From: a virus
IMG/VR virus record: IMGVR_UViG_3300030012_000403
Coordinates: 1-28,768 of that record
Length of the DNA: 28,768 bases
Strand: one strand, 5' to 3'
Positions 7,245 to 28,768 of the stretch are shown here, in pieces (the stretch's first letter is position 1; each line of letters opens with the position of its first letter). Below the pieces are notes generated by a model. It was not told the origin of the DNA. It was given only the letters and a program-made list of their open reading frames with translations, and ran no database searches. The position numbers and the translations under genes are program-made.

Positions 7245-7540
7245 TACAGAGTGTCTCTTGATGAGTATCGTGTTCTAAATTCAAGCTCTCTTTCTTCTCT
7301 TAATCTAAAAGTTTCCTCATCTCTTAATTCTGGATTTTCAGATTGTATCTTCCTTCTTGCTCTTGTTATTGATTCCCAGTTAGGGAGTTCATTTTTAGAA
7401 AGCATCATTAATAGGTCTAACGCTGTCATACTACCAACTTTATGAGATAAGTGGTCATACCATACCCTAGCCATTAAAATAGCATCAGATTTGCGATATT
7501 TTTTATTTGACTTTAGCAAAGCCTTTATCTTTTTCTGCAT
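7244..7540 (-). CDS. Small conserved-looking phage protein of the replication block
   Basis: A 98-residue protein with a helical N-terminal half (SNKKYRKSDAILMARVWYDH, then a Leu/Met-rich SMTALDLLMMLSKNEL) and a motif LPNWESITRARRKIQSENPELR (about 52-73) recurring in phage proteins beside replication genes. The basic SITRARRKIQ segment suggests a DNA-contacting helix, but no function is known to me. It overlaps the end of the HNH gene upstream by 38 bases and ends TAATG into the initiator. Confidence 0.65.
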   Translation of the reverse strand: MQKKIKALLKSNKKYRKSDAILMARVWYDHLSHKVGSMTALDLLMMLSKNELPNWESITRARRKIQSENPELRDEETFRLREERELEFRTRYSSRDTL

Positions 7541-7898
7541 CTAACATCCTCCTTAGTTTTTGATAATTTTCTTCTGTTGCAATATCTTTCTTCTTTACCA
7601 AAGATTGATTGTGCAATTTGTTGATATTATCAGTTTCCTTTTTAGTAAATTTTTCTTCCCATAAATGAACATGATCCATAGGAAAGCTGCCAACATGGAG
7701 ATGGCATCCAAAACAAAGAGCCATCGCATTAGCTGGTTCTATTCTAGTGGCCCATGATCTCCTTCCGTAAAAGTGGGAACAATGTAAACTTGCACTCCTC
7801 TCGTGGTATTTCTTCCCACATCTTTGGCAAGTCCAATTATCTCTAAAGCGAATATAATCGGAAAACACTATATCCCACTTAGTACGTTTTATCGCCAT
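7503..7898 (-). CDS. HNH nuclease, NinG-like recombination protein
   Basis: A 131-residue HNH/zinc-finger nuclease. C24 and C27 (CQRCGKKY), H39-C40-H42 (LHCSHFYGRR) and N57 with C62, C65 and H66 (NAMALCFGCH) supply the zinc ligands and the HNH active site. The HCSHFYGRR and ALCFGCH blocks resemble the NinG (Rap) recombination nucleases of lambdoid phages, which cut branched DNA. The rest, about 65 residues, is charged and helical. It sits with replication genes, favouring a recombination role over homing. ATG 7898 overlaps the preceding small gene by ten bases. Confidence 0.75.
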   Translation of the reverse strand: MAIKRTKWDIVFSDYIRFRDNWTCQRCGKKYHERSASLHCSHFYGRRSWATRIEPANAMALCFGCHLHVGSFPMDHVHLWEEKFTKKETDNINKLHNQSLVKKKDIATEENYQKLRRMLDAEKDKGFAKVK

Positions 7899-9464: not shown

Positions 9465-9905
9465 TTAATTATTCATCTCTTTATAGATATTATAAAAAGC
9501 TGAGTTGTTTTCTTTTAAGGTTTTAATTTGATGGCAATTAGCACATAAAACCCTACATTTTTTTACTTCTGCTTTAAGTTTGTCGAGATTGCCATTCAAA
9601 AGATTTGTAATGTTAGAGTGCTTTTCATATTCACTCTTATGGTCAAACTGCATCTTCAACATATCTGATTCTCCACAATGCTCACATGACTTGCCAAGTA
9701 AATAATTATATTTCCACATAGCTCCTCTACGACTCGACCACCTTCCACTAAATTTGCTTTTATATCTTTTATTCCTAGCAAGTACCTTTTCTTTACCTTT
9801 TGGATCAAGGTAATAACTAATTGTGGATTTAGAACAATTTAACTTCTTCGATATTTGGTTATAAGTATAACCTTTAGACCTCAAATTCAAAATAGCTTGT
9901 TTCAT
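9465..9905 (-). CDS. HNH endonuclease with N-terminal helix-turn-helix (homing-type)
   Basis: A 146-residue protein. Residues about 3-33 (YTYNQISKKLNCSKSTISYY) are a resolvase-like helix-turn-helix. The HNH domain follows: C74 and C77 (CEHCGES), D88-H89 (MQFDHKS), NLLNGN (about 101-106) and C121, C124, H125 (VLCANCHQIK). This build is typical of free-standing phage homing endonucleases. It nicks or cuts DNA and may promote its own spread; with an ORF-less group I intron in the same genome, action on the intron site in trans is conceivable but unproven. AAGGAGG precedes ATG 9905, which overlaps the upstream stop by TAATG. Confidence 0.85.
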   Translation of the reverse strand: MKQAILNLRSKGYTYNQISKKLNCSKSTISYYLDPKGKEKVLARNKRYKSKFSGRWSSRRGAMWKYNYLLGKSCEHCGESDMLKMQFDHKSEYEKHSNITNLLNGNLDKLKAEVKKCRVLCANCHQIKTLKENNSAFYNIYKEMNN

Positions 9906-25864: not shown

Positions 25865-26951
25865 TTAAGGATTGTTGAAGTTTACAACTTGACAAGCTGC
25901 TGCATCTACTGCTTGATGTAGAGCTGCACCGATTAATTGATCTACGACCAATTCGGTTGCTAAGTATTCTAAGTTGTAGCTTTGCTGTACACGAAGTGGG
26001 AACTGCTCTGCATAGAGAATTGAATCTCTTGTAAAGATACTTGCAGTTTCATCACCTGTACCACCATCATCATCCCAATCAGTTGAAGAGTAAACTTCCA
26101 TTCCGTATATTTGCTTTACCATTCCATTTACGTTTGCATTTCCACCAGCTTCTGGGCCACGCTTCTCATAGTCAATAAATTCACCAAGAGATGCCAAGCT
26201 CATATAACCAGCTGGAGATGTGTAAAAGAATGTATCTCCGTTAGTGTAATCAACACCTTGATCTAATAACTTTTGGAGGCCTTCACGAACTTTAGCAGTT
26301 GTGAAAGTGTTATCACTTCCAAGTGTTACGTCATTAGCAGTTACAGTCTGTATAAGTGCAGCAAGTGTTGCTTCCACTTTTTTAGCTACTGCATAACCCA
26401 TTGAGCGAGAGTAAAGATTGAATAGATCGTATGAGCTTTGAACTCTTACAAGATCACCAATTCTTTTACCTTCAACAATGTGAGTATCCATTGAGATTTG
26501 TATTTCGCCATCTGTATTTGCCCCAAATGAAACAGCAGAACCAGAACTTAGAGTACCAGCAGTTTCTTCACTTACACGAGGTACATGAATAGTATCTCCA
26601 CTTGCAACATCAGAAACATTTGTTACTTGATTCTTAATTCTAAATTGTCTTTCAGCGTAGTTAAGAATTGCTTCTTCCCACACTTCAGGTATAAACACCA
26701 TTTGTTATCGTAGTGGCTTTTTATCCTCTACTTCTTTAGGTTTCCCTAAAGTTCGGCATATCTTTTCAACTTTCGTTGTCGAGGCCTCTTGGGTACGTTA
26801 TATCTTTTCAGTACCTATGCTCTGCCCCTGACTAATCTTTGATTAGCCTTCGGTTCGGATTCCCTTATCTAAAACTTAGGGTTCCCGCTTAATTCCTCGA
26901 TTTTAAGCTGCCATGTTACCCAGCAGCTGTTGTGGTTGTTACTTCAGCCAT
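25865..26951 (-). CDS. Major capsid protein, gene split by a group I intron (join 26951-26922 and 26698-25865)
   Basis: Exon 1 (30 bases) encodes MAEVTTTTAA; exon 2 continues VFIPEVWEEAILNYAERQFR to the stop, giving 287 residues. The joined N-terminus matches the common phage coat pattern M-A-x-T-T-T-T-x-A-x-FIPE-W. Later blocks (GDTIHVPRVSEETAGTLSSG; IVEGKRIGDLVRVQSSYDLF; YTSPAGYMSLASLGEFIDYE) fit an HK97-fold capsid subunit. Exon 1 has AAAGGA eight bases before its ATG; the ATG at 26701 consists of the last three intron bases, so is not the real start. The gene follows the scaffold gene by 11 bases. Without splicing, exon 1 would be read one more codon (GGG) to a TAA just inside the intron. 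Confidence 0.9.
26699..26921 (-). ncRNA. Group I self-splicing intron, 223 nt, in the major capsid gene
   Basis: Intron position n is window position 26922-n. P1: exon GCUGCU with GGCAGC (10-15), U-G wobble at the 5' splice site. P10: AACAU (5-9) with exon 2 GUGUU. P3: UCGAGG (22-27)/CCUCGA (138-143). P4: CGGG (35-38)/UCCG (63-66). P5: CCC (41-43)/GGG (58-60). P6: GGCUAAUC (74-81)/GAUUAGUC (85-92). P7: GCAUA (102-106)/UAUGC (162-166). P7.1: GGUAC/GUACC (107-111/126-130). P8: CAAC-GAAA-GUUG (144-155). P9: CUUUAGG-GAAA-CCUAAAG (171-188). P9.1: 191-197/206-212. J8/7 is AAAAGA, and the last base is G (223). P7.1 suggests subgroup IA. No ORF inside. Confidence 0.92.
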
Positions 26952-26962
26952 TTATATATCCT

Positions 26963-27499
26963 TTATTTTTTCCTTCTCATAATATCAGCGAAGTTCTTTC
27001 TCCGATCTTCAGGCGATAAGTCTTTCCATCTTAAAACCTTGCCACCAGAAACGCCACCTCCACTATTATCAGTTTGAGGAACTTTATTATTAAATTCTGT
27101 TTTCATTTGTTCCAGAGTATCGGAATCTAAAGCAGACATTTTCTCCCTCAAATTCTCTGGAAAACTTTCGAGCAATCTTTCTTTCCTTGATTGTTCAATC
27201 GCTTGAAACTTCTTAGCATCAGCTTGGAACTTATCTCTTTCGGATTTAGTTTCTTCGTAGAGATTTCTCCAATCTTCTTTCTCTTCAGCTTCAGCAACTT
27301 CTTTTTCTTTAAGTTCACTTCTTAGTGTCATTAATTCATTTTCAAGGCTTTTCTTTGCTTCGTTTAGTTCTCTAAAACGCTTTCCTGGAACACTATAATC
27401 TTCAGCTTTATCGGTGCTGCTTACGGAATCTTCTTTTACGTCTTGATTAACGACTGGCTCTTCTTTTACGTCTTGAGCTTTGACTTCTTGTTCTGACAT
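26963..27499 (-). CDS. Capsid scaffolding protein
   Basis: A 178-residue, highly charged protein directly before the capsid gene. The order is an acidic disordered start (with the repeat QDVKEEPVVNQDVKED, its DNA also repeated), a long coiled coil (about 45-115, RELNEAKKSLENELMTLRSE), a Gly/Ser linker (about 148-155) and a basic end (SPEDRRKNFADIMRRKK). This is the classical layout of phage scaffolds, which bind capsid subunits through a basic C-terminal helix and leave or are degraded as the head matures. No protease domain is present. Confidence 0.85.
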   Translation of the reverse strand: MSEQEVKAQDVKEEPVVNQDVKEDSVSSTDKAEDYSVPGKRFRELNEAKKSLENELMTLRSELKEKEVAEAEEKEDWRNLYEETKSERDKFQADAKKFQAIEQSRKERLLESFPENLREKMSALDSDTLEQMKTEFNNKVPQTDNSGGGVSGGKVLRWKDLSPEDRRKNFADIMRRKK

Positions 27500-27962: not shown

Positions 27963-28702
27963 TATAAACTTGTTCTCTGGGTTAAATCTCTATCCTCAAA
28001 TACTTGTTCAATTTTATTTTGCTTGTACATTCCTTTACTTGTAAATCTTCTGAACTGATGCCTACAATTAAAATGCCCACCATTCTCAAATGTACCTGGA
28101 AATCTACTATTGATCTGGGAAAGTGTCATTGGCCCAGCTGCAAGAATCTGCATACAAACATCTGATGTTCTATTATCTATTGGGCCTGTAAATACATATT
28201 GAAGATTAGCTGGTGCGTTCTTAGCCATTTGCTTAATAACCGATCTATTGAACTTAGCAAGTGAATCGTTATACAATGCTTCTGCTTGAACCTTAGACAA
28301 TACACCGAACTGACCTTTTGTTAATTGATCCACAAACGCTTCTCTTGGTAAGCCATTGATTACAGAGTCGGTAAACAAACTCTTCATCTGAACGTAAGTA
28401 TTATCAAACTTAGAACGATATACATTTAAATCACTTTCTACCAATGCTCTTAATATGGTTTCATCTACATCTGCAAAACCATCCATATCTCTTAACGCAT
28501 CCAGATATGAGTTAGCTACACTTTGCAACTCTCGATTGAATCCAAGTTGATTCTCAAACAAATCTTTGAAATCAATATTACCAATAGCAACCAACAACTG
28601 ATTTACATCTGCCCCAGAATCAATCGTTCTGGCATATAGAGCTGCAATCTTATTCAAAGCTGCTTCGTATTTATTGGCGAATCTGTCTGAACTGTAAGCC
28701 AT
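27962..28702 (-). CDS. Minor head protein, Mu F-like
   Basis: A 246-residue protein directly after portal in the circular map, as Mu gpF and SPP1 gp7 relatives. The C-terminal part (about residues 168-215) holds VFTGPIDNRTSDVCMQILAA followed by ENGGHFNCRHQFRRFTS, the Cys/His pattern (C, H, C, H) of the Mu F domain. The N-terminal 160 residues are helical. Such proteins sit inside the head near the portal and may enter the cell with the DNA. Its ATG overlaps the portal stop across the junction of the contig. Confidence 0.85.
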   Translation of the reverse strand: MAYSSDRFANKYEAALNKIAALYARTIDSGADVNQLLVAIGNIDFKDLFENQLGFNRELQSVANSYLDALRDMDGFADVDETILRALVESDLNVYRSKFDNTYVQMKSLFTDSVINGLPREAFVDQLTKGQFGVLSKVQAEALYNDSLAKFNRSVIKQMAKNAPANLQYVFTGPIDNRTSDVCMQILAAGPMTLSQINSRFPGTFENGGHFNCRHQFRRFTSKGMYKQNKIEQVFEDRDLTQRTSL

Positions 28703-28768
28703 TAGCTACCTAATATATCTCCTAATGATGGTGCTGGTGCTTCAGCTTCTGGTTGCATCTCTGCTACC
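28667..28768. repeat. Terminal direct repeat, right copy
   Basis: Right copy of the 102-base end overlap, identical to positions 1-102 except T at 28670 for C at 4. Removing one copy leaves a 28,666-base circular unit. Confidence 0.95.
28702..28768 (-). CDS. Portal protein, 3' fragment (duplicate of gene at 36-1331)
   Basis: The last 21-22 codons of portal are repeated here because of the terminal overlap, ending PAPSLGDILGS and TAA. It is not a separate gene. Confidence 0.85.
   Translation of the reverse strand, partial: VAEMQPEAEAPAPSLGDILGS

Follow-up and report, generated by a model that had tools for sequence, protein, structure and literature searches.

A group I intron of 223 nt, devoid of an open reading frame (ORF), interrupts the major capsid protein (MCP) gene of a small phage after codon 10; with a probability of roughly 96%, we read it as a self-splicing element of IA-like type (with a P7.1 extension) from a family that has spread both between and within the MCP genes of marine phages. 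Sequence comparison demonstrates the gene structure, the fold, the splice junction and the lateral transfer set out below. The window (the whole stretch of DNA analysed, 28,768 nucleotides) corresponds to a genome of about 28.7 kb from an IMG/VR virus record, with head, tail and terminase genes on its minus strand; judging by the look of the contigs and of their relatives, this phage and its kin appear to be marine. Positions 1-102 and 28667-28768 form a 102-nt terminal repeat with one mismatch, and because both ends share this repeat the contig is probably circular, that is, a circularised phage genome.

The two exons of the gene (30 nt, and 834 nt including the stop) join GCT GCT to GTG TTT in frame, as the first-pass annotation had proposed, and the joined frame stays open: it encodes an MCP of 287 residues with a normal capsid N-terminus, beginning MAEVTTTTAAVFIPEVW. 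Exon 2 matches the phrog_267 major head protein (3e-29) and also PF25209; at 27% identity, the capsids of Pf-WMP3-like cyanophages are distant homologues. The boundaries previously drawn for both exons and the intron are exact (Table 1), and the forecast that gene callers would report a protein lacking its first ten residues is borne out, as the called ORF starts at ATG 26701-26699, the last three bases of the intron. Among nine MCP relatives compared (L001-L009), the peptide runs uninterrupted across MAEVTTTTAA-VFIPE, in the same or a homologous form, in L001, L002 and L004-L009, as had been anticipated for intronless relatives, while L003 carries the identical 223-nt intron at the same junction. 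A further 38 homologous MCP loci are without any intron.

Table 1. Positions of the capsid gene, intron elements and candidate homing gene in the window.
Feature	Positions	Strand	Pairing partner	Support
Likely ribosome-binding site AAAGGA, upstream of exon 1 ATG	26959-26964	-		sequence
MCP exon 1, codons 1-10 (MAEVTTTTAA), final base U	26922-26951	-		peptide uninterrupted in relatives lacking the intron
Group I intron, 223 nt, ORF-less, terminal G	26699-26921	-		
P10 strand AACAU	26913-26917	-	exon 2 GUGUU 26698-26694, G.U first	
P1 internal guide GGCAGCU	26906-26912	-	exon 1 AGCUGCU 26928-26922, U.G at splice site	
P3 5' strand	26895-26900	-	3' strand 26784-26779	both sides changed in 5/6 pairs
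P4-P5 domain	26856-26887	-		alignment and covariation
P6 and P6a	26827-26853	-		alignment and covariation
P7 5' strand GCAUA	26816-26820	-	3' strand UAUGC 26760-26756	
P7.1 hairpin, P7 to P3' (IA-type extension)	26792-26815	-		100% of cells paired; 4/5 pairs double-changed
P8 (CAAC GAAA GUUG)	26767-26778	-		covariation
P9 (CUUUAGG GAAA CCUAAAG)	26734-26751	-		RF00028 match, alignment, fold
P9.1 hairpin	26710-26731	-		alignment, fold
MCP exon 2, VFIPEVW... to stop	25865-26698	-		phrog_267, PF25209
Free-standing HTH-HNH endonuclease gene, candidate for homing in trans	9465-9905	-		phrog_2255, 8.5e-21

All the core helices that had been claimed for the intron are found in canonical order, P8 and P9 each closed by a GAAA loop; P1, whose U.G pair marks the 5' splice site, the terminal G and a P10 with exon 2 give the junction expected of a group I intron, the opening G.U of P10 being a point against it. 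The description of the intron as close to a minimal ribozyme was overstated: there are sister introns of 211 nt, those of the Jug phages average about 206 nt (PMC12363816), and 223 nt is ordinary. Of the P7.1/P7.2 extension that marks subgroup IA, the window intron shows a single covarying hairpin between P7 and P3', not a clear P7.1 plus P7.2, and its placement in IA is tentative; the sister introns at MCP site 265 have a second, inner hairpin there.

At the gathering threshold, an Rfam run on the window returned no match. The covariance check suggested earlier, with RF00028, succeeds in part: the intron matches across the full model, but at 18.4 bits (E 0.028) against a gathering score of 50, which is a curator's threshold and not a structural feature. 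The general model is insensitive to this family, as most sister introns also lie under the gathering score, with 22-47 bits, and a single type reaches 74. Since Rfam gave no match at its threshold, a family covariance model (R1) was built and trained solely on introns at other MCP sites (24, 102, 121, 217, 236 and 265). On the window it retrieves the intron at 160.3 bits (E 2.4e-40), the runner-up scoring 12 bits (E 0.1); none of 24 intronless MCP loci was matched, and the sole match within the intronless set, L062, proved to carry an intron. Folded as a single sequence, the window intron has a z-score of -3.9. Covariation was assessed on 24 introns from eight capsid positions, over the pairs of P3, P4, P5, P5a, P6, P6a, P7, P7.1 and P8; the count excludes P9 and P9.1, since MAFFT aligned P9 wrongly in introns from other sites, and P9 is supported by sequence and fold. 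Across the 41 pairs, 96.6% of cells are paired, both sides have changed in 23, and cells with changes on both sides number 148, against 41 +/- 5.6 in shuffles; sliding the partner strand by 1-3 bases lowers pairing to 26-35%. P7, for example, reads GCAUA with UAUGC, GCGUA with UACGC, or, in the introns of sites 59 and 132, GACUA with UAGUC. The conserved core from P3 to P9, with its P3/P7 pseudoknot, is therefore present, by covariation and, for P9, by sequence and fold.

The guide of the window intron forms pairs with exon 1 over six bases and with exon 2 over five, exactly at the proposed junction, and the P10 strands of the family track exon 2 (GUGUU with AACAU in the window, AAUUU with AAAUU in L029, GCAAA with UUUGU in L037). 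When exons were swapped among introns, pairing with the intron's own exons exceeded the mean with the others' in 52 of 57 introns. In a comparison with shifted junctions, the best of ten shifts scored on average about equal to the true junction; such scores are inflated by taking the best of ten, and hence the exon swap alone was used. Ribosomal bypassing occurs in phages (T4 gene 60), and an in-frame continuation lies on the far side of the gap here as well, but we assign a negligible chance to a ribosome hopping over the 223 nt of an unspliced RNA: matching take-off and landing codons are absent at the junction, and bypassing would leave a full group I core, with covarying helices and with P1 and P10 placed exactly there, without a role.

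Under the reading that we favour, self-splicing, the internal guide would form P1 with the last bases of exon 1 and P10 with the first bases of exon 2 in the late transcript, a guanosine bound in P7 would attack after the U, and the 3' OH of exon 1 would then attack behind the terminal G, so that GCU and GUG are ligated in frame. We infer this chemistry, its efficiency and its occurrence in the late transcript because the unspliced message stops after codon 10 and because sister introns are without the intron-terminal ATG. That ATG, used as a start by the gene caller and lying in frame directly before exon 2, might instead serve a degenerate, non-splicing intron, translation from it giving an MCP without residues 1-10. 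Such a reading is very improbable, for introns at the same site in sister phages end in ACTG/AAT or ATTG/AAT (the slash marking the junction) and the start codon is thus not conserved; the ribosome-binding site and peptide of exon 1 are retained; helices and guide pairing have been kept through compensatory change; and other sister introns, up to four in one gene, lie deep within it, where a restart would yield no capsid.

The anatomy of the gene suggests that capsid synthesis depends on splicing. As the unspliced message ends after MAEVTTTTAAG (GGG TAA), capsid output would therefore track splicing, and late or incomplete splicing could make the intron a control on the timing or dose of capsid synthesis, not a neutral passenger; the family, moreover, is seen in the MCP and nowhere else in longer related records. 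We nonetheless consider such control distinctly unlikely: relatives whose MCPs are 95-96% identical to that of the window are without the intron, which is hence dispensable, and its patchiness suits a selfish element.

Two scans, one using a core pattern and the other the MCP of a different lineage, revealed insertions all through this gene family, and the intron positions were set by splice-aware protein-to-DNA alignment requiring a U before the 5' splice site and a G at the end of the intron. ORF-less introns of 211-294 nt occupy about 19 MCP positions in 55 loci, several of them near-duplicates; the count is approximate because the equality of positions across lineages rests on protein alignment, and inside one lineage about ten positions are clear. 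Two MCP genes, L093 862-2695 and L095 1207-3067, hold four ORF-less introns each (in reference-MCP numbering, sites 18, 59, 102 or 236, and 265) and still give a spliced protein of full length, while L086 and L196 have three. An intron of another type, 248 nt long and scoring 74 bits with RF00028, sits at site 20 (L049, L084 and L086), two codons from the window-type site. Apparent introns at reference residue 9 in L030, L092, L102, L161, L173 and L207, and all those of L117, were dropped as artefacts, caused by N-termini that differ or by genes that are incomplete. A twentieth site is found in L076 (930-1500), where an intron of 571 nt between NFIP and EIW contains an ORF for a LAGLIDADG endonuclease (PF00961, 1.4e-8) that ends at the 3' splice site; it is the sole endonuclease-bearing member among the MCP introns found. 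Rfam gave no match to this intron, and so its call is based on the continuity of the gene, the guide pairing (an unbroken match of 11 bases) and the LAGLIDADG ORF. A screen of the intron-bearing loci with endonuclease motifs, which were overly strict, had no matches. Across 14 longer related records, R1 found five introns in four (one each in L003, L016 and L017, two in L081), all of them MCP introns already known, and the family is confined to the MCP in these records.

The exact core of the window intron recurs in ten contigs at the same gene position, before N/VFIPE. These introns are 85-95% identical to that of the window, yet the MCP proteins are 32-40% identical (about 36%), and for this reason we conclude that the intron has been transferred laterally between capsid lineages, without an endonuclease of its own. 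The window and L031 introns differ at 13 positions, 7 of them within the first 19 nt, that is, the guide region, and exon 2 differs too. As a check for co-conversion, window and L003 were compared: about 500 nt around the intron are free of differences, a stretch of little weight given how similar the flank upstream is in any case. Two introns, L030 (=L019) 1278-1500 and L044 (=L013) 696-924, are chimeric and have a broken P10, exon 1 and the 5' half coming from one capsid lineage and exon 2 and the 3' half from another; they are either products of recombination within the intron or assembly chimeras.

In a tree, the introns group by insertion site (11 changes, against 19.8 with shuffled labels), which implies that most were inherited or homed at one site, whereas the L087 intron at site 217 is 97% identical to the L090 intron at site 121 and so points to a recent move within the gene. 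No homing endonuclease lies in the 223 nt of the window intron, which has no ORF, and its mobility would therefore need outside help. An endonuclease might act in trans, the free-standing HTH-HNH gene of the window being a candidate; a search of 17 related records, run without a positive control, did not detect that gene. According to the summary of Zeng et al. 2009 given in PMC9860041, a free-standing enzyme targets the intron site in cyanophage psbA. The window also encodes a NinG/Rap-like HNH protein (7503-7898, minus strand; phrog_5034, 3e-17). Alternatively, an endonuclease may once have been carried and then lost, that of L076 being still present, or the introns may move by reverse splicing, as argued for rDNA introns of fungi (PMC1299323). 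Similarity of introns at different sites was unrelated to shared junction sequence at the site level (rho 0.05, p 0.49), and the sharing expected under reverse splicing fits the 217/121 pair only (CGGT/ATG). That a single ORF-less ribozyme family has specialised on the MCP of marine phages, colonising new positions by RNA-guided insertion (reverse splicing into the plentiful late capsid mRNA, followed by recombination) and not by endonuclease homing, is a speculative and rather unlikely proposal.

Capsid genes of phages are already known from the literature to contain group I introns, as are MCPs with several introns and ribozymes of about 206 nt (PMC3706429, PMC7886860, PMC12363816); what is unusual here is that the introns crowd into a single gene without homing genes, and we found no publication on this intron family of small marine phages in the open-licence literature. 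A highly expressed structural gene tolerates up to four ribozymes. In these phages, standard gene callers break up the MCP gene, a marker in viral ecology, or misplace its start, and the general Rfam model overlooks most introns of the family. With its presences and absences, a site shared by divergent genes, a near-identical intron at two sites and one endonuclease-bearing neighbour, the assembled set makes the spread of ORF-less group I introns in phages directly testable.

Among known systems, the mycobacteriophages of Cluster J carry group I introns in the MCP of LittleE and in a tail gene of BAKA (PMC3706429). LittleE resembles the window in having a group I-like intron in its MCP, spliced during infection, but by description it differs in encoding a homing endonuclease, in its high-GC host and in having one intron per gene; the BAKA copy is related and lacks an endonuclease. 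The crAss-like phages (PMC7886860) likewise have group I introns in core genes, with a Zeta-genome MCP in five fragments, but they are large gut phages and three of the four gaps in that MCP encode intron-associated proteins, whereas the present phages are of about 30 kb and their introns are ORF-less and 211-294 nt long. The introns of the huge Jug phages (PMC12363816) are similarly compact, at a mean of about 206 nt, and metatranscriptome reads support the splicing of 37 of 76; those genomes, however, measure 360-402 kb and spread about 18 introns across many genes. Gram-positive phages and phage-like plasmids also contain relatives of the ribozyme itself, some within terL or close to it and some in other genes: R1 matches (E 1e-6 to 1e-27) were obtained for Streptococcus thermophilus and Staphylococcus (Sextaecvirus) phages, inside terL or beside it, with 78-88% nucleotide identity over the 3' domain, and for plasmid-borne phage-like regions of L. 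reuteri, with 69-73% identity over 201 nt; all of these introns differ from that of the window in gene, host and guide sequence. One L. reuteri plasmid (L025) has family introns at 1500-1675 and 2733-2882, just upstream of or near a terminase gene, and the gene starts annotated at these introns are probably wrong. Finally, the DNA polymerase intron of cyanophage Pf-WMP3 (PMC3428280) is, like ours, a phage group I intron with a P7.1-type extension, but it resides in another gene, encodes the HNH enzyme I-PfoP3I and has both P7.1 and P7.2, the two features that together underlie its assignment to IA2.
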